Shown: one piece after another, positions 17,494 to 30,294 of the stretch
Numbering within the stretch: the first letter of the stretch is position 1
Layout: the number at the start of each line of letters is the position of its first letter
NCBI GenBank assembly: GCA_035934015.1
Contig: DASYYH010000011.1
Coordinates: forward strand, 248,001 to 312,000
DNA: 64,000 nucleotides
Source: Candidatus Acidiferrales bacterium
Lineage (GTDB): Bacteria; Acidobacteriota; Terriglobia; Acidiferrales; UBA7541
Direction of reading: 5' to 3'
Notes under the pieces: generated by a model
What the model was told of the DNA's origin: nothing
Databases searched by the model: none
What the model saw: only the letters and a program-made list of their open reading frames with translations
Made by a program: the position numbers and the translations under genes

Positions 17494-17651
17494 GCCGCTA
17501 GGTTAAGCCACTGGCGGTCAATGGACAAACGGGTAGGTCGCGCGCGCGTCTGCATCGGTATGCAACGACAGGCGGGGCTGAAGCGTCGCGCCGGCCCGCG
17601 GGGCGATTGACACAGGCTGCGGCGCGCCGTAACCTGAATCAGGCGACGACG

Positions 17652-18479
17652 ATGGATCTGTTCGAAGAAATTGTGCGGATGAGGCGCGCGGGGCAGCGCG
17701 GCGCGCTGGCGACGATCGTACACACAAACGGCTCGATCCCAAGCTATGAGAGTTCGCGGATGTTGGTGCGCGAAGACGGCTCGATTGCTGGCACCGTCGG
17801 CGGCGGATGCGTCGAGGCGGAAGTGTGGGCCGCGGCGAAAGAAGCGATTCACGAAGAGACGCCGCGGAAGATGACGTTCAATTTGAACAATGAGGCGGCA
17901 TACGACGCGGGATTGATTTGCGGCGGGACGCTGGAGATTTTCGTCGAACCGATTTTGCCGCAGCCGAAGCTATATTTGTTCGGCGGCGGGCACGTCTCGA
18001 CGGCGCTGGCGCGCGTGGCGCATCTGGCAGGATTTTCGATCACGGTGATCGACGACCGGGCGAGCTTCGCGAATGCGGAACGCTTTCCGATGGCCGAAGA
18101 AGCGATCACGACGTACGAAGAGGCGTTTGGAAAAGTTAAGCCGAACGCGTCGTCGTACCTCGTGATTGTGACGCGCGGGCACAAGGACGATATGCGCGTG
18201 CTCGAATGGGCCGTCGGCACAGACGCGCGCTACATCGGAATGATCGGCAGCAAACGCAAAGTGATCTCCGTTTACAAGGCACTGGAGAAACAAGGCATCG
18301 CCGCGAAACAGTTCGCGCGCGTGCATGCGCCGGTGGGATTGGAAATCGGCGCGCTGACGCCGGAAGAAATCGCCGTGAGCGTGACGGCGGAGCTGATTGC
18401 GATTCGCAGAAATGCGCCGTCCGGCGTGACGCACAAAGCGGTGCGTTTGGACAAAGTGCCCGCGCTGAAGCACGAGTGA
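17652..18479 (+). CDS. xdhC: XdhC-family molybdoenzyme maturation factor
   Basis: About 275 residues. XdhC proteins bind molybdenum cofactor, assist its sulfuration and deliver it to xanthine-dehydrogenase-type hydroxylases. The N-terminal domain shows GSIPSYESSRMLV and GTVGGGCVEAEVW. The C-terminal Rossmann domain has LYLFGGGHVSTALARVAHLAG, VTRGHKDDM and GMIGSKRK. I start at ATG 17652 (MDLFEEIVRMR), where homology begins, rather than the upstream 17607. It ends four bases before the MocA-like gene in the same direction, a typical pairing for cofactor insertion. Confidence 0.9.
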   Translation: MDLFEEIVRMRRAGQRGALATIVHTNGSIPSYESSRMLVREDGSIAGTVGGGCVEAEVWAAAKEAIHEETPRKMTFNLNNEAAYDAGLICGGTLEIFVEPILPQPKLYLFGGGHVSTALARVAHLAGFSITVIDDRASFANAERFPMAEEAITTYEEAFGKVKPNASSYLVIVTRGHKDDMRVLEWAVGTDARYIGMIGSKRKVISVYKALEKQGIAAKQFARVHAPVGLEIGALTPEEIAVSVTAELIAIRRNAPSGVTHKAVRLDKVPALKHE

Positions 18480-18482
18480 AGC

Positions 18483-19154
18483 ATGCTGGCCGTTGTGATT
18501 TTGGGGGCGGGCGAATCGCGGCGCATGGGCCAGCCGAAAGCGCTGCTTCCCTTCCCTGAAAATTTTGCGCCTCGTGCAGCGCGAGAGCCATCGGATGCCG
18601 GGCCGAAGCCCGCCGCCGCGAAATCTTCGCAGCAGCATTCAACGAAAACATTCTTGTGCCATTTAATCGATGTGACGCGGCATCCGCGTGCGGGACTTCT
18701 GCGCGTCGTTGTGGGTGCGCACGCGGAAGAAATTCGCGCGCGTGCGAAATTGGACGCGGAAGAACTCGTGGTGAATGAGGAGTGGCAGCGCGGGCAGCTT
18801 TCGTCGCTGCGTGCAGCGATACGCAGCTTGCCGGCAGGCGCGACGGAGGGAATGCTCGTTTGCCTGGTGGATCATCCGCTGATTTCGGAGCGCGTGATCG
18901 CGCAGCTGATGGATGCATTCGATGGAGCGAAAAATCGCGTCGTGATTCCGACATTTCGCGGACGGCGCGGGCATCCAGTGATTTTTTCGAGCGCGCTTTA
19001 CAGCGAATTGCTGAATGCACCGGAAGAAATTGGCGCGCGAGCCGTGGTACGTGCACACGATGGAGATGTGATTGAAGTTGCGGTGGAAGAAGAAGGTGTG
19101 TTGCTGAATTTGAACGAGCCTGAATCTCTGCGGCGAATTGCGAATCCAACGTAA
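18483..19154 (+). CDS. MocA-like molybdenum cofactor nucleotidyltransferase
   Basis: A 223-residue NTP-transferase-3 fold protein expected to make molybdopterin cytosine dinucleotide. The signature VVILGAGESRRMGQPKALLPF is at the N-terminus, and VCLVDHPLIS carries the metal-binding Asp. GRRGHPVIF is the usual base-contact motif. About 30 low-complexity residues (Pro/Ala/Ser-rich, about 27-58) are inserted directly after LLPF; the DNA there includes the palindrome GGGC-CGAA-GCCC (18600-18611). The insertion is in frame. Co-directional with xdhC, four bases apart. Confidence 0.85.
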   Translation: MLAVVILGAGESRRMGQPKALLPFPENFAPRAAREPSDAGPKPAAAKSSQQHSTKTFLCHLIDVTRHPRAGLLRVVVGAHAEEIRARAKLDAEELVVNEEWQRGQLSSLRAAIRSLPAGATEGMLVCLVDHPLISERVIAQLMDAFDGAKNRVVIPTFRGRRGHPVIFSSALYSELLNAPEEIGARAVVRAHDGDVIEVAVEEEGVLLNLNEPESLRRIANPT

Positions 19155-19196: not shown

Positions 19197-19778
19197 ATGC
19201 CTCGCATGAATGGAGTGGAAGCAAAAGACGCGCCGTGGCACGTTCGGCTGATTTACTGGGCCATGAAACGGCGGCTGGGACAGGTTTCGGAAACGACGAA
19301 GATTCTGGCGCATGATCCGCGGTTGCTGCGGCAGTGGACGCGCATGACGAAATATTCAGAAGCCAAAGGTGAGCTATTGCCGCGGCTGCGGCGGCTGGCG
19401 ATGCTGAAAACGGCGATGATGGTGGGGTGCCCGTTTTGAATTGACATCCATTCTGCCGTCGGCAGAAAAAGAAATGGAATTACGGAAGAACAGCTTCTGG
19501 ATCTGGCGCAATTCGAACCAAGCGCGCATTTCACGGAGACAGAGAAAAACGTTCTGCGGCTGACTGCGGCGCTGACGCGGACGCCGGCGAACGTGAGCGA
19601 TGAACTCTTCGCGGCGCTGAGGCGGGATTTTTCGGAGCGGCAGATCGTGGAACTGACGGCGGCGATTGGGTGGGAGAATTATCGCGCGCGGTTCAACCGA
19701 GCGTTTGGCGTCGAGGCGGCAGGATTTTCGCACGGGAAGTTCTGTCCGCTGCCGGAGCGGCCGAGTTCCTCAGGCTAG
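19197..19778 (+). CDS. AhpD/CMD-family selenoprotein with in-frame UGA (Sec81), CPFU motif
   Basis: Reading through the TGA at 19437-19439 gives a continuous 193-residue carboxymuconolactone decarboxylase/AhpD-like protein. Before the TGA it has RLRRLAMLKTAMMVGCPF; after it, IDIHSAVGRK, EEQLLDL, VSDELFAALRRDFSE, QIVELTAAIGWENYRARFN and GFSHGKFC, all matching this family. The TGA occupies the second Cys of the usual CPFC redox motif, so selenocysteine is the best reading. A hairpin with a GTC loop follows 11 bases downstream. The ribosome-binding site AGAGGAG is seven bases before the ATG. A thiol/selenol peroxidase-like or disulfide-type redox role is inferred. The alternative is a nonsense-mutated gene. 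Confidence 0.8.
19451..19467 (+). promoter_or_regulatory. Candidate bacterial SECIS hairpin
   Basis: Seven perfect pairs TTCTGCC/GGCAGAA around a GTC loop; the loop begins 18 bases after the TGA. Known bacterial SECIS elements are stem-loops directly after the UGA with a G early in the apical loop, as here. Confidence 0.65.
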
Positions 19779-20483: not shown

Positions 20484-21185
20484 ATGCGCCATTCTGCAGT
20501 TGTGCGGATCACTCACTGGATTATCACGCTAGGCTTCTTTGCCCTGCTCCTCACCGGCATTGAAATTCTGATTTCTCATCCGCGCTTCTACTGGGGCGAG
20601 ACGGGAAACGATTTGACCAAGCCGTTATTTCAAATCCCCATCCCCTCCTCGAGAGATATGGTCCCGACGGGTTACAACTACGTCCTGCCGGACCAGAATG
20701 GCTGGAGCCGCGCGCTGCACTTCGAAGCTGCGTGGCTCGTGTTCTTCACTGGCTTGCTGTACGTGCTGTTTGGTATTTTCTCCGGGCATCTCCGGAAAAA
20801 CTTGCTGCCGGCCAAGTCTGATCTTTCCTGGCGAAGTCTATGGGCAACAATCCTCAACCATCTGCGGTTCCGGCGGCCGCTTGAACACGAAGCGTGGTCC
20901 TACAACATACTCCAGAGGCTTTCGTATCTTTTTGTGATCTTTGTTTTGTTCCCTCTGGTGATCTGGACTGGCCTGGCAATGTCTCCAACATTTACTGCAG
21001 CGTTTCCGTCGTCGGTCATTCTCCTGGGCGGCCGGCAATCCGCTCGCACGATTCACTTCTTTGTTTCCATTGTTCTCGCCCTGTTTTTGGTGGTGCACAT
21101 TGCGATGATTTCTCTGGCTGGATTCCGGAGCCGCACGCGAGCGATGGTCACCGGACGAGCAGACGCAGGTGAGGAGCACACATGA
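20484..21185 (+). CDS. Cytochrome b561-type membrane subunit
   Basis: A 233-residue di-haem cytochrome b of the PF01292 type (hydrogenase/formate dehydrogenase-like), with four main helices. RITHWIITLGFFALLLTG begins the first helix with a haem-ligand His, ALHFEAAWLVFFTGLLYVLFG the second, and ARTIHFFVSIVLALFLVVHIAM the last with two histidines. It would connect the quinone pool to the molybdoenzyme encoded next. The stop overlaps the next start (ATGA). GGAGG lies 11 bases before the ATG. Confidence 0.88.
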   Translation: MRHSAVVRITHWIITLGFFALLLTGIEILISHPRFYWGETGNDLTKPLFQIPIPSSRDMVPTGYNYVLPDQNGWSRALHFEAAWLVFFTGLLYVLFGIFSGHLRKNLLPAKSDLSWRSLWATILNHLRFRRPLEHEAWSYNILQRLSYLFVIFVLFPLVIWTGLAMSPTFTAAFPSSVILLGGRQSARTIHFFVSIVLALFLVVHIAMISLAGFRSRTRAMVTGRADAGEEHT

Positions 21186-21940
21186 CAAAGGTCTCACGGC
21201 GTAAGTTGATTCTGGGTGGACTCGCATTGGCAGCAGGAGCAAGCGGTCTGGACGCAGCCGCCAAGCTGGCGGAAAAGTACGGCTTGATTCCGCCGGACCA
21301 CAGGGGAATCTATGGCCCAGGTGAAACGCTGAACTATGCTTTCCAACGCCTGCTGGGGCGCCACTCTCTGGCGCGCGAGTTCCCCGCGAGCATGATTTCG
21401 AAGCGCCCCTTCGCGAACGAAATTGCTCCGCCGAGTGACGCTTTCAAGCGCCTGCAGGCTGGCGGATTCGCAGACTGGCGGCTGACCGTGGACGGCCTGG
21501 TGGAGCGGCCCGCCTCGTTTTCGCTTGACCAAATCCGGAGCTTTCCACGCCGCAGCCAGATTACCGAAGTCGCCTGCGAAGAAGGCTGGTCCTACGTAGC
21601 CGAGTGGATTGGCGCGCGGCTCTCTGACATCCTGAATACGACAATAGTTCGCCCGCAGGCCAAATACGTGGTCTATTTTTCGATGGATCCGCAATGGTGG
21701 GACAGCCTCGATATGGACGAAGCGACGCATCCTCAGACTTTTCTCACCTATGGGATGAATGGGAAGGATCTCCCAGTGGGCAGTGGCGGCCCGCTGCGCA
21801 TGCGTGTCCCACGACAGCTTGGCTACAAGAGCGTCAAGTTCATTACGCATTTAACCGTCATCGACGACATCAAGAAGTTCAGGAACGGACTGGGTTCGTT
21901 CGAGCCAGAAGGTGGCTACGCCTGGTACGCAGGCATCTGA
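21182..21940 (+). CDS. Sulfite-oxidase-fold molybdoenzyme (YedY-like), Tat-exported
   Basis: A 252-residue oxidoreductase of the molybdopterin-binding sulfite oxidase fold (PF00174). The N-terminus SRRKLILGGLALAAGASG is a probable twin-arginine signal. EVACEEGWSYVAEWIG has the cysteine that should coordinate molybdenum, and GSGGPLRMRVPRQLGYKSVKFI is typical of the C-terminus of the domain. Overlap with the cytochrome b gene by four bases means the two form a periplasmic enzyme/membrane anchor pair. The substrate (sulfite, methionine sulfoxide, nitrate-like oxyanion) is not determined. Confidence 0.88.
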   Translation: MTKVSRRKLILGGLALAAGASGLDAAAKLAEKYGLIPPDHRGIYGPGETLNYAFQRLLGRHSLAREFPASMISKRPFANEIAPPSDAFKRLQAGGFADWRLTVDGLVERPASFSLDQIRSFPRRSQITEVACEEGWSYVAEWIGARLSDILNTTIVRPQAKYVVYFSMDPQWWDSLDMDEATHPQTFLTYGMNGKDLPVGSGGPLRMRVPRQLGYKSVKFITHLTVIDDIKKFRNGLGSFEPEGGYAWYAGI

Positions 21941-22587: not shown

Positions 22588-25113
22588 CTACTCATACCTC
22601 AGCGCGACGATGGGGTCGACTTTCATGGCGCGGCGCGCGGGAATATAACAGGCAAAGAGCGCGACAGCGACGAGAACCGCGGCGACGGCGACAAAGGTCA
22701 AAGGATCGTAGGATTTCACGCCGAAAGTCAGGCTCGCGACCAAACGCGTGACCCCAAGCGCGGCGACGACACCAATTGCAAGGCCAATCAAAGTCAGCGT
22801 GATGCCCTGGCGGATGACTATGCGGAGAACGTCGGCGGGTTTGGCGCCCAGGGCCATGCGAATACCAATTTCGTGCGTCTTGCGCGTGACGGAATATGCC
22901 ATGGTGCCGTAAAGGCCGATCATGGCGAGCGTGAGAGCCAGCAAGCCAAAAACGGAGGTGAGCTGGGCAAAGAGGCGCTCCTGAGAGAGAGCCTCGCTGG
23001 TTTCCTCGGTTTGCGTTTTCAGATCCATAAGAGGCAGGGCGGGATCGGCCTGGCGCACGGCGTCTCGAAGCTCGGAGATCACTGTTGACGGCGGGCCCTG
23101 GGTGCGAACTTCGAAGAACATCATGTCGAGAGTCTTAGGACTCTGTGCGTAAGCATAATAGGCCTTGGGGAGGGGCTCGGAGCGCGGGTCGGTCAACTCC
23201 GCGGGCCTGGCCACGCCGACGATTTCAATCGTGTGCTGAGGATCGAACTTCAAACCTCTGCTGAAGCGGTGACCGACGGGATTTTCCCCAGGGAAAAATT
23301 TCTTGGCGAAGGTTTCGTCGACAACCGCGATGATGGGCGAGGCCGCTGTATCGCTCGGCAGGATGCCCCGGCCCAGAATGATGGGAATGCCCATGGTGCG
23401 AAAGAAGTCCGGGCCGATGTGTTGCGAGCGAATGATAGGGTTATCGGATTTTGGCGCGGTGCCTTCGGCGTACACGGAATTATTATTGGACCAGCCGTTG
23501 AAGGGAGCATATTCCATCAAAGTGGCGGCTTTGACGCCAGGGATGGACTGGATGCGATCCAGCAACTGCGAATAGAAATTGACCAAGCGAGCATCGTGAT
23601 AGCCCGCGCGAGTCGGATCCAGGGCAAAGCTCAACAAATTCCGCTGGTTGAAACCGAAATTGTTGTTTTCAAAGTTGATGAGGGTACGAACGAAAAGACC
23701 CGCGCCGACCATGAGGACGAGAGAGGCGGCAACCTGCGCGACAATCAGCGATTTGCCGAGGCGATGCTTATCGCGCACATCGGTGATGTTTGCGGCGCTG
23801 TCTTTCATGGCGGATGCCAGCTCGACGCGCGTGATACGAAACGCGGGGGCGAGACCGAAGATGACTCCGGTGAGGATTGCTGCGACCAGCGTGAAGAGGA
23901 GTACTTTCAGATCCGTGCCGGTATCCAAGACCATCGGAGTGCCACCGCCGGACATAAGCGCAACCAAAGCGCGTGTTCCGGAGGAAGCGAAAAGCAATCC
24001 CAACGCGCCGCCGAGAACGGACATCAAGACGCTTTCGGTGATCAACTGGCGAATCAGACGAGCGCGCGAAGCGCCTACAGCCAGACGCACGCTGATTTCT
24101 TTCTTCCGGCCCGTGGCGCGCGCGAGGAGCAAAGTTGCGACGTTCGCGCAGGCGATCAAAAGGACGAGTCCGACGGCGAACATGAGAACGTAGAGCGGCT
24201 GTCCGGTGCTTTGTTGCAACTGGGGCAGGCCCTGCGTGGCGGAAGCCAGGGACATGTGCGGGACCTGGTCGGGTTTGTCCGGGTGCCAATTCGCGGTGAC
24301 GATTTGATGGAATAACGCGTCGAGGCCGCTCTGCGCCTGAGCGCGCGTCACGCCATTTTGCAGACGACCCATGACGTTTACACAAAGCCAATTAGGCGCA
24401 GCGAAGACGGAAGTGGCGCCACCGCCGGGCGGGCTGCTCCAAGGACGCATTTCGGGCTTATCGTCAAAGGGCACCCAAAGATCAGGCTCGATTCCGATTT
24501 GAACGCCGTAAAACGTTGGCGGCGTGACACCGACAATGGAAAAAGGGATGCCATTCAAAGTAACGTCCTGGCCAAGAATCGAGGCGCTCTGGGCGAACTG
24601 GCGCGTCCAATAGGCGTAACTGACGACGGCGACGTGCGGCGCGCCGGGGTTTTCGTCGGATTCGTTGATGCCGCGACCGAGAAGAGGAGCGACGCCGAGC
24701 GTGGAGAAGAATTCTCCCGAGACCATCATGCCATTGGCGAGAGTGGGCTGGCCATTGATGCCGACCGTGGTGTTCTGGGCGTTGAAGCCGAGCGGTGCCC
24801 ACGCGAAAATGCCGGAAAACAATTTGTTCTGCTGGCGGAATTCTTCAAACGTGGGATAGGAAAATGAGTACTTGGAATCCCAGCCTGTCTGGCCGAACTG
24901 CGGCGGCCATTTGTTGTCGTCCCATTGGAAGAGGGCGAGCTGCTGAGGATTTTTCACGGGCAAGGATTTGAGCATGACGGCATCGATGAGACTGAAGATC
25001 GCGGTATTGGCGCCGATGCCGAGAGCGAGAGTGAGAACGGCAACGATGGTGAAGCCGGGAGACTTGATGAGAATGCGAAATGCGTAGCGCAAATCCTGCC
25101 AGAGTGTGTTCAT
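22588..25113 (-). CDS. ADOP-family orphan ABC permease (MacB/FtsX type), copy 1
   Basis: About 841 residues from the ATG at 25113 (MNTLWQDLRYAF). It has the duplicated-permease layout: a first helix in SPGFTIVAVLTLALGIGA, a large MacB-like periplasmic domain, a central FtsX four-helix block near VGLVLLIACANVATLLLARATG, a second periplasmic domain, and a C-terminal FtsX block ending ACYIPARRAMKVDPIVALRYE. No ATPase gene is adjacent, which is why the family is called orphan. Export or mechanotransmission in the envelope is inferred. It is the last of three leftward paralogues. Confidence 0.93.
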   Translation of the reverse strand: MNTLWQDLRYAFRILIKSPGFTIVAVLTLALGIGANTAIFSLIDAVMLKSLPVKNPQQLALFQWDDNKWPPQFGQTGWDSKYSFSYPTFEEFRQQNKLFSGIFAWAPLGFNAQNTTVGINGQPTLANGMMVSGEFFSTLGVAPLLGRGINESDENPGAPHVAVVSYAYWTRQFAQSASILGQDVTLNGIPFSIVGVTPPTFYGVQIGIEPDLWVPFDDKPEMRPWSSPPGGGATSVFAAPNWLCVNVMGRLQNGVTRAQAQSGLDALFHQIVTANWHPDKPDQVPHMSLASATQGLPQLQQSTGQPLYVLMFAVGLVLLIACANVATLLLARATGRKKEISVRLAVGASRARLIRQLITESVLMSVLGGALGLLFASSGTRALVALMSGGGTPMVLDTGTDLKVLLFTLVAAILTGVIFGLAPAFRITRVELASAMKDSAANITDVRDKHRLGKSLIVAQVAASLVLMVGAGLFVRTLINFENNNFGFNQRNLLSFALDPTRAGYHDARLVNFYSQLLDRIQSIPGVKAATLMEYAPFNGWSNNNSVYAEGTAPKSDNPIIRSQHIGPDFFRTMGIPIILGRGILPSDTAASPIIAVVDETFAKKFFPGENPVGHRFSRGLKFDPQHTIEIVGVARPAELTDPRSEPLPKAYYAYAQSPKTLDMMFFEVRTQGPPSTVISELRDAVRQADPALPLMDLKTQTEETSEALSQERLFAQLTSVFGLLALTLAMIGLYGTMAYSVTRKTHEIGIRMALGAKPADVLRIVIRQGITLTLIGLAIGVVAALGVTRLVASLTFGVKSYDPLTFVAVAAVLVAVALFACYIPARRAMKVDPIVALRYE

Positions 25114-25227
25114 TGGATGTTTTGTGTACCTCGCCAAGTTAGACGAACAAAGAGTTCAAATGTAATCACGACGCCAAAAGCAACGCGCGAAAAATCTGTC
25201 TCCTTTACATTCCAAAATGAGCGCCGA

Positions 25228-27666
25228 CTATTCATAGCGAAGCGCGACCATAGGATCCGTGCGCATGGCGCGGCGCGCGGGAATGTAACAAGCGAAAAGC
25301 GCGACGGCGGCGAGCACGACAGCCACGAGAATAAATGTGGCCGGGTCCGCAGCTGAGACGCCGAACAGCAAGCTGGACATCAGGCGCGTCAGACCGAGCG
25401 CGGCAACGATTCCTGCCGCGACGCCGACGCCAACGAGTTTTGCCCCCTGCCCCAAGACGAGATGCAGAACATCTTTTTGTTGCGCGCCGAGCGCAACGCG
25501 AATGCCGATCTCGCGCGTGCGCTGGGTGACAACGTAGGCCATCACTCCGTACAGCCCGACGGCGGCGAGGATAAGCGCGAGGGCGGCGAAAACACCAAGG
25601 AGAGTCGCGGCCAAACGCGGCTGGGAAAGGGATTGGGAGATCAGATCTTCGAACGGAATGGTCCTCGAGACCGGAATCTGGGAATCCACCGTATGAATCG
25701 CGGAAACGACGGGCTTCGCGGAGTTCGCCGGAGCTGCTTCGGTGCGCACGACCAAGCTGATCGGCAAGCCGGGAAGAAACTGAGCGGCGTCCGATGGATT
25801 CATTGCGCTCATGCAGACGTAGACGGATGGGCGCGGAGGTTCTGTAGGACCGAACTGACGCTCGTCGCCAGCGACACCGACGATGCGGAGCCAGGGGTGA
25901 ACTCCATCCCAAAGATTGACGCTTTGGCCGATGGGGTCCTGATTGGGAAAGTACTCTTCTGCGAACGCGCGATTGACAACAGCAACGAGAACGCCGCTTG
26001 CGTCGTCGCTATCGGAGAGATCACGGCCGCGAAGAATGGGAACGTGCATGGTGGTGAGATAGCCGGCGCTGACGAGGCGCCATTCCGCTACCTGATTGTC
26101 TCCGGGCTTGGGCATGGGCCGACCCTGAATCTTAAAGTCACCATTAATGTTCAGACCAGAAAACGGGAGGTACACAATGCTGCTGGCAGAGACGACGCCT
26201 GGAAGCGCCTTGATGTGGCCGAGCATTTCGTGAATCGAAGCGAGGCGCGTGGGAACCTGAGCCACGGTGGTGCTTGGAAGATACAGCTCCATGGTGAGGA
26301 CGTTGTGAGGATCGAATCCGGGCGCAACATGGAGAAGCGAGGAGAAGGAACGGAGCATCAGGCCTCCTCCGATAAGGAGCAACATAGCAGTGGCGATTTC
26401 AAAAGCGACGAGGAAGCTCTTGAAGCGCGACATGCCGCCTGCGGAGCCGGAGCGTTCTCCGGCCTCCTTCAAAGTGGCGCCCAAATCGACGCGACCAGAG
26501 TGGAGAGCGGGCACGAGGCCGAAGAGCAGGCCGGTGAGCAACGAGAGCGCCGCGGTAAAGAGCAGGATGCGCGAGCCAATGTGAATCGAGCCGGCGGTTT
26601 GGAGCATGTTTGCGGGCGCGATGGAAAGGAGCGCAGGAGTGGCGCTATACGCGAAGGCAAGTCCCAAAGCGGCACCGACGATGGCCAGCACGACACTTTC
26701 TGTGAGCAATTGACGCATGATGCGGCCACGGCCCGCACCCAGGGCGGCGCGAAGAGCCATCTCCTTGCGCCGCGTGGTCCCGCGCGCGAGCAAGAGATTG
26801 GCAACGTTCACGCAAGCGATAAGGAGTACGAAGCCGACGGCAGCAAGAAGGGTTAGGAGTGCCGGACGAATATTGCGAACGCGAAGGTCTTGAAGCGAAT
26901 CCGTGCGAATGCCGCGCTTGGCATTTGTGTCGGGATATTGCTTCCGGAGACGCGCGCCGATGGTGTCCATGTCCGCAGAGGCCGCGGCAAGCGAGACGCC
27001 CAGTTTAAGCCTGCCAATCACTTCCAAGGCATGGCTGCCACGATCCTGGACAAGCGGATTATCCGGAGTGAGCGACGTCCAGAGTTCTTCGTCCTGAACG
27101 GGAGCAAAGCTGGGGGAAGTGACGCCTGCGACGGTATAAACCTCGCCACTGAGTTCCAAAGTTTTCCCCACAATGTTCGGGTCTGCACCGAAGACGCGAT
27201 GCCAGAGGCCGTTGCTTAGTACCGCAACGCGCGCACCGGCATTGAAGTCACTGCTGTTAAACAATCGTCCGAGGGCCGGTTGAGCGTCGAGCAGGCCGAA
27301 GAAGTCAGCAGAAACTTCCATGTTGCGAAGGCGCTGCGGCTCGCCGGAGCCAGTGAGATTCAGGCCATCCTCGAAATAGGCGGCGAGGCCGGAGAAAGAG
27401 CGACTCTGTGCGCGCCAATCATCGAAATCGGGGCCGGAGGCCGTGCCAAGGCCCTTTCCCGAAAGGGTCAAGGTTTCGTGAAGTTGGACGAGTTGCTGCG
27501 GCTGGGGATAAGGGAGGGGTTGGAGCAAAACGCCGTTGACGACGGTGAAGATGGCGGTGTTGGCACCGATGCCGAGAGCGAGAGTGAGGACGGCAATCAA
27601 CGTGAAACCGGGAGACTTGATAAGAACTCGAAAGGCATAGCGCAAATCCTGCCAGAGTGTTGTCAT
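25228..27666 (-). CDS. ADOP-family orphan ABC permease, copy 2
   Basis: 812 residues with the same architecture as its neighbours: MTTLWQDLRYAFRVLIKSPGF N-terminus, MacB-like core (RVAVLSNGLWHRVFG), middle FtsX block (FVLLIACVNVANLLLARGTTRRKEMALRAALGAGRGR) and C-terminal FtsX block ending RRAMRTDPMVALRYE. The first 30 residues are almost identical to copy 1, so the two probably arose by recent duplication followed by divergence of the periplasmic parts. The 114-bp gap to copy 1 has no terminator. Confidence 0.93.
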   Translation of the reverse strand: MTTLWQDLRYAFRVLIKSPGFTLIAVLTLALGIGANTAIFTVVNGVLLQPLPYPQPQQLVQLHETLTLSGKGLGTASGPDFDDWRAQSRSFSGLAAYFEDGLNLTGSGEPQRLRNMEVSADFFGLLDAQPALGRLFNSSDFNAGARVAVLSNGLWHRVFGADPNIVGKTLELSGEVYTVAGVTSPSFAPVQDEELWTSLTPDNPLVQDRGSHALEVIGRLKLGVSLAAASADMDTIGARLRKQYPDTNAKRGIRTDSLQDLRVRNIRPALLTLLAAVGFVLLIACVNVANLLLARGTTRRKEMALRAALGAGRGRIMRQLLTESVVLAIVGAALGLAFAYSATPALLSIAPANMLQTAGSIHIGSRILLFTAALSLLTGLLFGLVPALHSGRVDLGATLKEAGERSGSAGGMSRFKSFLVAFEIATAMLLLIGGGLMLRSFSSLLHVAPGFDPHNVLTMELYLPSTTVAQVPTRLASIHEMLGHIKALPGVVSASSIVYLPFSGLNINGDFKIQGRPMPKPGDNQVAEWRLVSAGYLTTMHVPILRGRDLSDSDDASGVLVAVVNRAFAEEYFPNQDPIGQSVNLWDGVHPWLRIVGVAGDERQFGPTEPPRPSVYVCMSAMNPSDAAQFLPGLPISLVVRTEAAPANSAKPVVSAIHTVDSQIPVSRTIPFEDLISQSLSQPRLAATLLGVFAALALILAAVGLYGVMAYVVTQRTREIGIRVALGAQQKDVLHLVLGQGAKLVGVGVAAGIVAALGLTRLMSSLLFGVSAADPATFILVAVVLAAVALFACYIPARRAMRTDPMVALRYE

Positions 27667-27747
27667 AACATTCTCCGAAAGAGATTATAGAAGCCGACCG
27701 CCGACGACCGGTTACAACAGCAAATACAAAATCGGAAAATCGAGCGC

Positions 27748-27802
27748 TTATTCATAGCGCAACCCGACCCTGCCTGCGGCAGGCAGGCATGGGATCGACT
27801 TG
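27748..27802 (-). pseudogene. Second ADOP 3'-end remnant split by the same palindrome
   Basis: Minus strand: GTC GAT CCC ATG, the 19-bp palindrome, then GTC GGG TTG CGC TAT GAA TAA, i.e. VDPM-VGLRYE-stop. It lies 12 bases beyond the intact stop of permease copy 3. Confidence 0.6.
27769..27787. repeat. 19-bp palindromic element, copy 2
   Basis: Identical to 22486-22504 and set between the ATG and GTC codons of the remnant, exactly as in copy 1. Confidence 0.8.
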
Positions 27803-27814
27803 ACTTGAGCAAAC

Positions 27815-30262
27815 TTACTCATACCGTAAGGCAACCATCGGATCGACTTTCATGGCGCGGCGCGCGGGAATGTAACAAGCGAAAAGCGCGACGCCGAGCA
27901 GGAGAATCGCAACGGCTGCGAATGTGAGCGGATCGGTGGCGCTGATGCCGAAAAGCTCGTTCGAAAGCGCGCGCGTGAGGGCAAAGGACGCGGCCAGTCC
28001 GACAGCGAGGCCGATCAGAGCAAGCTCCAATCCCTGGCGCAGGACAAGACGCAAGACGTCGCGCGGTTCGGCGCCGAGCGCCATGCGGATGCCGATCTCG
28101 TGGGTGCGCTGGCGCGTAGTGTACGCAAGAACGCCGTAGATCCCTATCCCGGCAAGCACAAGAGCGAGAGCTCCGAACCCGCCAACGAAAACACCGGCAA
28201 GGCGCTGCGTGGTGGTGTTGAGCTGAATGCGGGAATCGAGAGTGGTCAGATCAAATAGCGGCAAGTCGGCATCCAGCGAACGCACAGCATTTTGAACAGG
28301 CGTGACGAAGGCGAGAGGGTCACCGGCAACGCGCACGTAAATGGCGACGTGGCGGTCGTAGTCCTGAAAGATCGGGAGATACATGAAGGGCTGCGGTTTC
28401 TGGCCAATGCTGATGTAGTCGCTGTCCTGAGCGACACCAACGACGGCATACCACGTTCCGCCAGCCTGAAGCTTTTCGCCGATAGGTTCGCTGTGCGGCC
28501 AATAACGATGCGCGAATGTTTCGTTGACGATTGCGACGGACTGCGAACTGCTGATATCGGCAGGAGTGAATTCGCGGCCAGCGAGCAGAGGGGTTTGCAT
28601 GGTTCGCAGATAGTTTGGCCCCACATCCGCGTACTGAACGTTCATGGATTCGTGAGGCTGCGGAACGTAGCCTTCGACCTGAATGGCGTAGGAGGATTGA
28701 GCGAAACCGAGGGGAATCCAGCCGGCGATGGTGGCGGATACGGCGCCGGGAATGGCCTGGAGCTTGCCGTAGAGCTGGCGATGAAATTGAGTGCCGGAAG
28801 TTTTGTCGTAGCCGAGGCCGGAGAGATCGTAGTCGTAGAGCAAGACATTGTGGGGGTTGAAGCCGGGATTGAATTGCTGCGCCTGACGGACGCTGCGAAT
28901 GAAAAGTCCAGCGCAGACGAGGAGCAAGAGCGACATGGCGATTTGCGTAACAACGAGGAAGCTCGAGAGGCGCGCTCTATGCATTCCGCCGGAAGCGCTG
29001 CTCGCTTCTTCCTTCAGAACGCTCGCAGGCTGAAGGCTTGAGGAGCGAAATGCGGGCAGAATGCCGAAAATGATGCCGGTGAAAATCGAAATGACCAGCG
29101 TGGCAAGGAGGACGGTGCGGTCCGCATTCACGGTCATGCTGAGCGGAATCTCCGCGACGGGCGGCAGAAAATCGCCGAGCGTGCCGGCGGTCCACAGCGT
29201 GAACAACATGGCGACGCAGCCGCCGCAGAAGGCGAGAATGAAGCTTTCGGCGAGCAACTGGCGAACAAGCCGCCAGCGCGTGGCGCCGATGGAGAGACGA
29301 ATAGCCATTTCGCGGCGTCGCGCGACGGAGCGCACGAGCAAGAGATTTGCGACATTGGCGCAGGCGAGAAGAAGCACCACTCCGGAGATGGCCAGCAGAA
29401 GGAACAAAATCGTGTGGAGATAATAATTCGCGCCAAAGGGCGCGCGCCACAACGGACTGGCAAGAATGTCGATGTTGCCCTGATGCTGCTTGGGATACTG
29501 CGCCGCAATTCCGTGCATGAGGACGTTGAGATCGGCCTGGGCGCGGTCCGCAGTAACGCCGCGCTTCAGATGAGCGACGCAAATAAGCCAGTTGGTGCCG
29601 CGATCATGGAGAAGAAAATCGGCGGTAGTGCTGCTGTAGAAATCGGCGACCTGCATGAGCGGCACCCACAAGTCATAACTGAGGCCAGTTTGCGTGCCGA
29701 CAAAGCCGCGCGGCGCGACGCCGACAATTTGCAGAGGATGACGATCGAGCTCAATGGTGCGGCCGATGACGGAAGGATCGCCACCGAAGTGCGTTTGCCA
29801 GAGACGATAGCTGATGACAACGACGGGGGCGCCGCCGGGCTTGGTGTCTTCGGAGGGCAGAAAGCCGCGCCCGAGGATGGGACGAACTCCCAAGGCGTCG
29901 AAATAATTCGCTGATGCCAAAATGCCCCAACGGCGTTCGGGTTTGCCGTTGGCGGTGAGGCTCATCGTTGTGTTGGTGAACGCGACAAGACCAGAGAGAG
30001 TGCCATTGCGGTCGCGAAGGTCTGCGTAATCGGGATAAGAGAGAGGATTGGGGTTGCGCCCGGCGTCGATGGTGACGGCGATCCACTGGCTGGCATGCTT
30101 CACACCGGGAATTGGATTGAGGATTGTGGAATTGATCCAACTGAAAATCGTGGAATTTGCGCCAATGCCGAGCGCCAGCGTGAGAATGGCGATGATGGAA
30201 AAGCCTGGAGATTTTCGCAGGACGCGAAAGCCGTAACGCAGATCCTGAATGAACGTTCTCAC
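27815..30262 (-). CDS. ADOP-family orphan ABC permease, copy 3
   Basis: About 815 residues. N-terminus RTFIQDLRYGFRVLRKSPGFSIIAILTLALGIGANS; MacB-like domain with GRGFLPSEDTKPGGAPVVVISYRLWQ; middle FtsX block VVLLLACANVANLLLVRSVARRREMAIRLSIGATRW; C-terminal block ending RRAMKVDPMVALRYE. GGAGG sits immediately before the upstream GTG (30271) but eight bases before the GTG at 30262, so I choose the latter. A sigma-54-like promoter and an upstream palindrome precede it. It is the first gene of the leftward permease trio and the most divergent. Confidence 0.92.
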   Translation of the reverse strand: MRTFIQDLRYGFRVLRKSPGFSIIAILTLALGIGANSTIFSWINSTILNPIPGVKHASQWIAVTIDAGRNPNPLSYPDYADLRDRNGTLSGLVAFTNTTMSLTANGKPERRWGILASANYFDALGVRPILGRGFLPSEDTKPGGAPVVVISYRLWQTHFGGDPSVIGRTIELDRHPLQIVGVAPRGFVGTQTGLSYDLWVPLMQVADFYSSTTADFLLHDRGTNWLICVAHLKRGVTADRAQADLNVLMHGIAAQYPKQHQGNIDILASPLWRAPFGANYYLHTILFLLLAISGVVLLLACANVANLLLVRSVARRREMAIRLSIGATRWRLVRQLLAESFILAFCGGCVAMLFTLWTAGTLGDFLPPVAEIPLSMTVNADRTVLLATLVISIFTGIIFGILPAFRSSSLQPASVLKEEASSASGGMHRARLSSFLVVTQIAMSLLLLVCAGLFIRSVRQAQQFNPGFNPHNVLLYDYDLSGLGYDKTSGTQFHRQLYGKLQAIPGAVSATIAGWIPLGFAQSSYAIQVEGYVPQPHESMNVQYADVGPNYLRTMQTPLLAGREFTPADISSSQSVAIVNETFAHRYWPHSEPIGEKLQAGGTWYAVVGVAQDSDYISIGQKPQPFMYLPIFQDYDRHVAIYVRVAGDPLAFVTPVQNAVRSLDADLPLFDLTTLDSRIQLNTTTQRLAGVFVGGFGALALVLAGIGIYGVLAYTTRQRTHEIGIRMALGAEPRDVLRLVLRQGLELALIGLAVGLAASFALTRALSNELFGISATDPLTFAAVAILLLGVALFACYIPARRAMKVDPMVALRYE

Positions 30263-30294
30263 TGGACTCACCTCCGCGACTTACAGATTCTAGT

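Follow-up and report, generated by a model that had tools for sequence, protein, structure and literature searches.

The window (the whole 64,000-nucleotide stretch of Candidatus Acidiferrales DNA analysed here) contains a candidate selenoprotein gene preceded by two molybdenum-related genes, with the following features:

17607-18479, plus strand: XdhC-family molybdoenzyme maturation factor, an upstream neighbour kept in two congeners
18483-19154, plus strand: MobA/MocA-like molybdenum cofactor nucleotidyltransferase, an upstream neighbour kept in two congeners
19197-19778, plus strand: predicted AhpD-like selenoprotein gene (CMD family, COG2128/YciW-YnjA type), 193 residues with selenocysteine (Sec) at 81
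19437-19439, plus strand: TGA codon predicted to be read as selenocysteine (U81), the second redox position of CPFU, with C78 as the first; close homologues share the TGA at this column and others have Cys
19451-19467, plus strand: bacterial SECIS-like hairpin TTCTGCC-GTC-GGCAGAA, within the coding sequence and 11 nt after the TGA, with compensatory changes and the rare codons TCT and AGA
19743-19745, plus strand: codon of C183, the C-terminal Cys of a [FYV]C-x-x-P tail common to many members and a candidate third redox residue

The gene starts with an ATG at 19197, preceded by a purine-rich ribosome-binding site (AGAGGAG), reaches the TGA at codon 81 within the motif GCPFU-IDIHSAVGR and continues for a further 112 residues to a TAG stop at 19776-19778, in agreement with the frame and coordinates proposed by the first-pass annotation. 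That annotation had also placed the TGA at the second Cys of a redox CPFC motif, and the placement holds: the motif reads C78-P-F-U81, and the column is occupied by TGA or Cys in homologues. Its central claim, that the gene encodes a CPFU selenoprotein of the CMD/AhpD family, is supported by the Sec machinery of the genome, by homologues, by selection and by a covarying hairpin. Automatic gene calling would end the product at residue 80, so that the active site and the last 112 residues would be lost here and in the relatives of the gene. The openness of the frame across the TGA does not in itself constitute evidence, since in this GC-rich window composition alone yields 43 frames of similar size that are bridged by a TGA (two of these 43 have a Cys three residues before the TGA). 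What raises this frame above chance is its homologues, which share the TGA column, protein conservation on both sides of it and the covarying hairpin.

The selenoprotein reading had been made dependent on the presence of selA, selB, selC and selD, and the complete set is found in the genome. The assembly (28 contigs, 98.6% complete) encodes selA (567 bits, cut-off 268), selB (382 bits, cut-off 242) and selD (358 bits, cut-off 125), and a tRNA-Sec (selC) with anticodon TCA (65.9 bits) lies on the window's own contig at C11:322690-322784, approximately 10.7 kb beyond the window end. An in-frame TGA also occurs once in the selD gene (L018 1501-2445; G000:C8:23885-24829), close to the N-terminal end (U11 in the matched stretch), and SelD of this genome is itself a predicted selenoprotein.

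Among 100 related genomes, nearly all of the best matches to the gene have just one TGA. Homologues with as little as about 35% identity have it in the same alignment column, nearly all of them lacking any other internal stop, and the close homologues with the identical TGA column come from several families of the phylum. Random stop codons around column 81, the sign of a pseudogene, had been named as a reason to doubt the reading; almost every homologue has its single TGA there, or Cys instead. The motif takes the form CPFU or CVFU in the close group and CxYU in a sister branch, with Cys in a few sequences. A wider sample of the phylum returned further members, again with one TGA each, and a peptide-pattern search of genome contigs identified one close relative (91%) in a Candidatus Acidiferrales MAG. 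One copy of the CPFU gene, in genome G030 (L038 1501-2200), shows an apparent frameshift past residue 105, attributable to draft error or decay.

Comparison of the window gene with two congeneric orthologues yields dN/dS ratios of 0.088 and 0.118 downstream of the TGA, versus 0.181 and 0.364 upstream, so purifying selection is stronger 3' of the TGA than 5' of it. These low values indicate that the part downstream of the TGA is translated and constrained.

The hairpin was described beforehand as seven pairs with a G-first triloop starting 11 bases past the TGA; it does have 7 bp and a GUC loop, and it is conserved with covariation. The fold of the single window sequence is modest (z -1.95, with 11 of 200 shuffles equally good). 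Throughout the aligned CPFU/CVFU homologues, a stem of 6-7 bp starts 11 nt after the TGA. Over 18 sequences, pairing is kept in 99.1% of cells and four of the six stem pairs show changes on both sides. Double-change cells number 10, against 1.3 in shuffles; the covariation score was reached by none of 500 shuffles, and the signal was lost when pairing partners were shifted by one to three columns. Homologue L061 provides the most telling example: its stem (CGCTAGC/GCTAGCG) differs at most positions and pairing remains complete. The stem uses codons that are rare among the window's genes, TCT accounting for 9.6% of Ser and AGA for 3.6% of Arg. When synonymous sequences were drawn with protein and codon usage preserved, the six pairs formed at a frequency of 0.2-3.3% for 15 of the 16 homologues and of 19% for the remaining one; these probabilities are not to be multiplied because the 16 sequences are related. 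A scan of Rfam for known SECIS families returned no matching family, only chance snoRNA matches. Taken on its sequence and covariation, the hairpin is a putative SECIS element with predicted SelB binding.

Sec and Cys forms are distributed in partial accordance with selA. All 14 tested CPFU/CVFU genomes of at least 85% completeness have selA, and the two without a strong selA match are 59% and 65% complete. Four Sec/Cys changes are needed on a tree of 34 proteins. In genus g4, selA is missing from three genomes, which have Cys in the sister-branch AhpD-like protein (L048 1501-1974, L049 1501-1965, L050 542-1024), an apparent loss of the Sec trait that makes this genus a natural control for Sec-to-Cys exchange. 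Cys forms also occur in genomes G051 and G068, which do have selA, and the association of selA with Sec is therefore one-directional. The sister-branch stem is degraded in the Cys homologues of genus g4 and mostly kept in the Cys form of G051, as expected from a recent Sec/Cys exchange. One Cys-coding homologue with a CEYC motif (L040 1501-1962), from a selA-positive genome, retains the greater part of the SECIS-like stem, suggestive of a recent Sec-to-Cys exchange.

These data bear on three other explanations of the TGA. If it were a true stop, the gene would be a pseudogene or encode a truncated 80-residue protein, as the meaning of TGA in table 11 and the abundance of comparable bridged frames in the window would allow; the strong purifying selection and conservation downstream of the codon refute this account, and it is further opposed by the identical TGA column in close homologues from several families and by the covariation of the hairpin, leaving it very improbable. 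The draft status of the genome, in 28 contigs, could be invoked in favour of a sequencing or assembly error in which a Cys codon (TGC or TGT) was misread as TGA. The same TGA recurs in independent genomes, which refutes such an error, and a hairpin spelled with the rare TCT and AGA codons would have no purpose beside a Cys codon; we consider the probability of this explanation negligible.

Decoding of UGA as an amino acid other than Sec, through suppression or stop-codon reassignment (to Trp, for instance), would also produce a full-length protein. Against it stand the Cys at position 81 of homologues without the TGA, the conservation of the SECIS-like hairpin, a complete Sec machinery and neighbouring genes whose scores are those of ordinary table 11 proteins; this possibility appears extremely slight. 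We thus interpret 19197-19778 as encoding a SelB-decoded, AhpD-like selenoprotein whose UGA codes for the second redox residue of CPFU, and assign this reading, derived from comparative sequence analysis, a probability of about 0.96.

The PF02627 (CMD) match runs across the TGA, spanning residues 41-124 with 46.3 bits (gathering score 23), and the two-residue CxxC/CxxU redox motif of the CMD/AhpD family is present as C78-P-F-U81. The AlphaFold2 model is confident (pLDDT 90.9, pTM 0.87) and all-helical; C78 directly precedes helix 79-92 and U81 lies inside it. The C-terminal tail has low pLDDT, so the modelled C183-U81 distance carries no information. Top Foldseek matches are AhpD-core structures and peroxidase-related proteins, including the debrominase Bmp8, a Cys enzyme. 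In Mycobacterium AhpD, the proton relay comprises a Glu and a His beside the CxxC. In the alignment, H85 of the window protein occupies the position of the relay His and R66 that of the relay Glu. The Mycobacterium-type pair is therefore incomplete in the window protein, and many relatives have Gly or Asn at the His position. Peroxidase chemistry of the classical AhpD type is consequently not assured, and the case for Sec is much stronger than that for a peroxidase. The product would be an AhpD-like thiol/selenol oxidoreductase, probably a peroxidase. Of the CPFU homologues whose sequences were read, 13 carry the Cys of the [FYV]C-x-x-P tail; no such residue was seen in L032, L037, L060, L062 and L064. 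As a lead, C183 may be a resolving thiol or the third member of a three-residue redox relay.

The XdhC-MobA pair lies upstream of the gene in three congeneric genomes, those of the window, G003 and G004. Next to more distant homologues, XdhC/MobA-like genes were not found, the neighbours there being YCII, CoA transferase, TPR and adenylyltransferase genes. A molybdenum link is hence a lead, not a result, and a general operon partner was rejected, since G003 and G004 alone preserve the pair and the neighbours differ elsewhere. Downstream of the gene, the window contains cytochrome b561 and molybdopterin-binding oxidoreductase genes (20484-21940), which were not seen beside the gene in the two congeneric loci compared. 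Further along, at 22588-30271 on the minus strand, are three tandem MacB/FtsX-type permease paralogues of 812-849 residues.

Following established bacterial Sec biology, SelB would bind the hairpin and bring Sec-tRNA(Sec) to the UGA, so that the full 193-residue protein would be made rather than the 80-residue fragment. Positioned at the N-terminal end of the active-site helix, the thiol-selenol pair C78/U81 would then drive a redox cycle of the AhpD-like peroxidase or disulfide reductase kind, and C183, on its flexible tail, may serve as an additional thiol for resolution or relay. A bolder and rather unlikely proposal is that the CPFU subgroup forms a distinct selenoenzyme type, in which a three-residue relay (C78, U81, C183) would support a reaction other than AhpD peroxide reduction, such as Bmp8-like reductive dehalogenation or a molybdoenzyme-tied redox step, the latter prompted by the upstream XdhC and MobA-like genes.

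AhpD-like selenoproteins of COG2128 were listed in 2006 (PMC1794560), and CxxU forms were among the commonest selenoproteins in Global Ocean Sampling data, with 299 sequences, under the name 'AhpD-like 1' (PMC2398784); AhpD-like, CMD-like and distant AhpD selenoproteins also figure in recent reviews. CxxU AhpD-like selenoproteins (COG2128/YciW, TIGR01926) are thus an established class, described since 2006-2008 (see also PMC9312934, PMC13188914), which the window gene joins. It shares with them the CMD/AhpD fold, Sec at the second redox position and a downstream SECIS, and differs in its CPFU subgroup, in which many members carry the C-terminal [FYV]C-x-x-P tail. With TIGR01926 the window protein scores 49.5 bits, under the cut-off of 81.8 and hence outside that subfamily. 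The best curated model is NF053654 (NCBIfam GroundWater_YciW, YciW-related (seleno)protein), which matches it in full over residues 1-174 and matches 27 of 27 aligned homologues; its score of 108.1 bits versus an equivalog cut-off of 310 makes the window protein a relative, not a member. E. coli YnjA and a Cys-type CMD protein of Cupriavidus (CEFC) match the window protein in architecture at approximately 32% identity, down to a C-terminal Cys tail (GLCRIP and GFCRMP), but carry Cys where it has Sec. Bmp8 (PDB 6ohi, 6ohj) also has the AhpD-like fold (E 2e-22 by profile, TM about 0.75 by Foldseek) at roughly 20% identity, a likeness that does not imply a common substrate. No NCBIfam model captures the window protein at its cut-off, and the present analysis adds a Sec-containing acidobacterial subgroup to the known AhpD-like selenoproteins.
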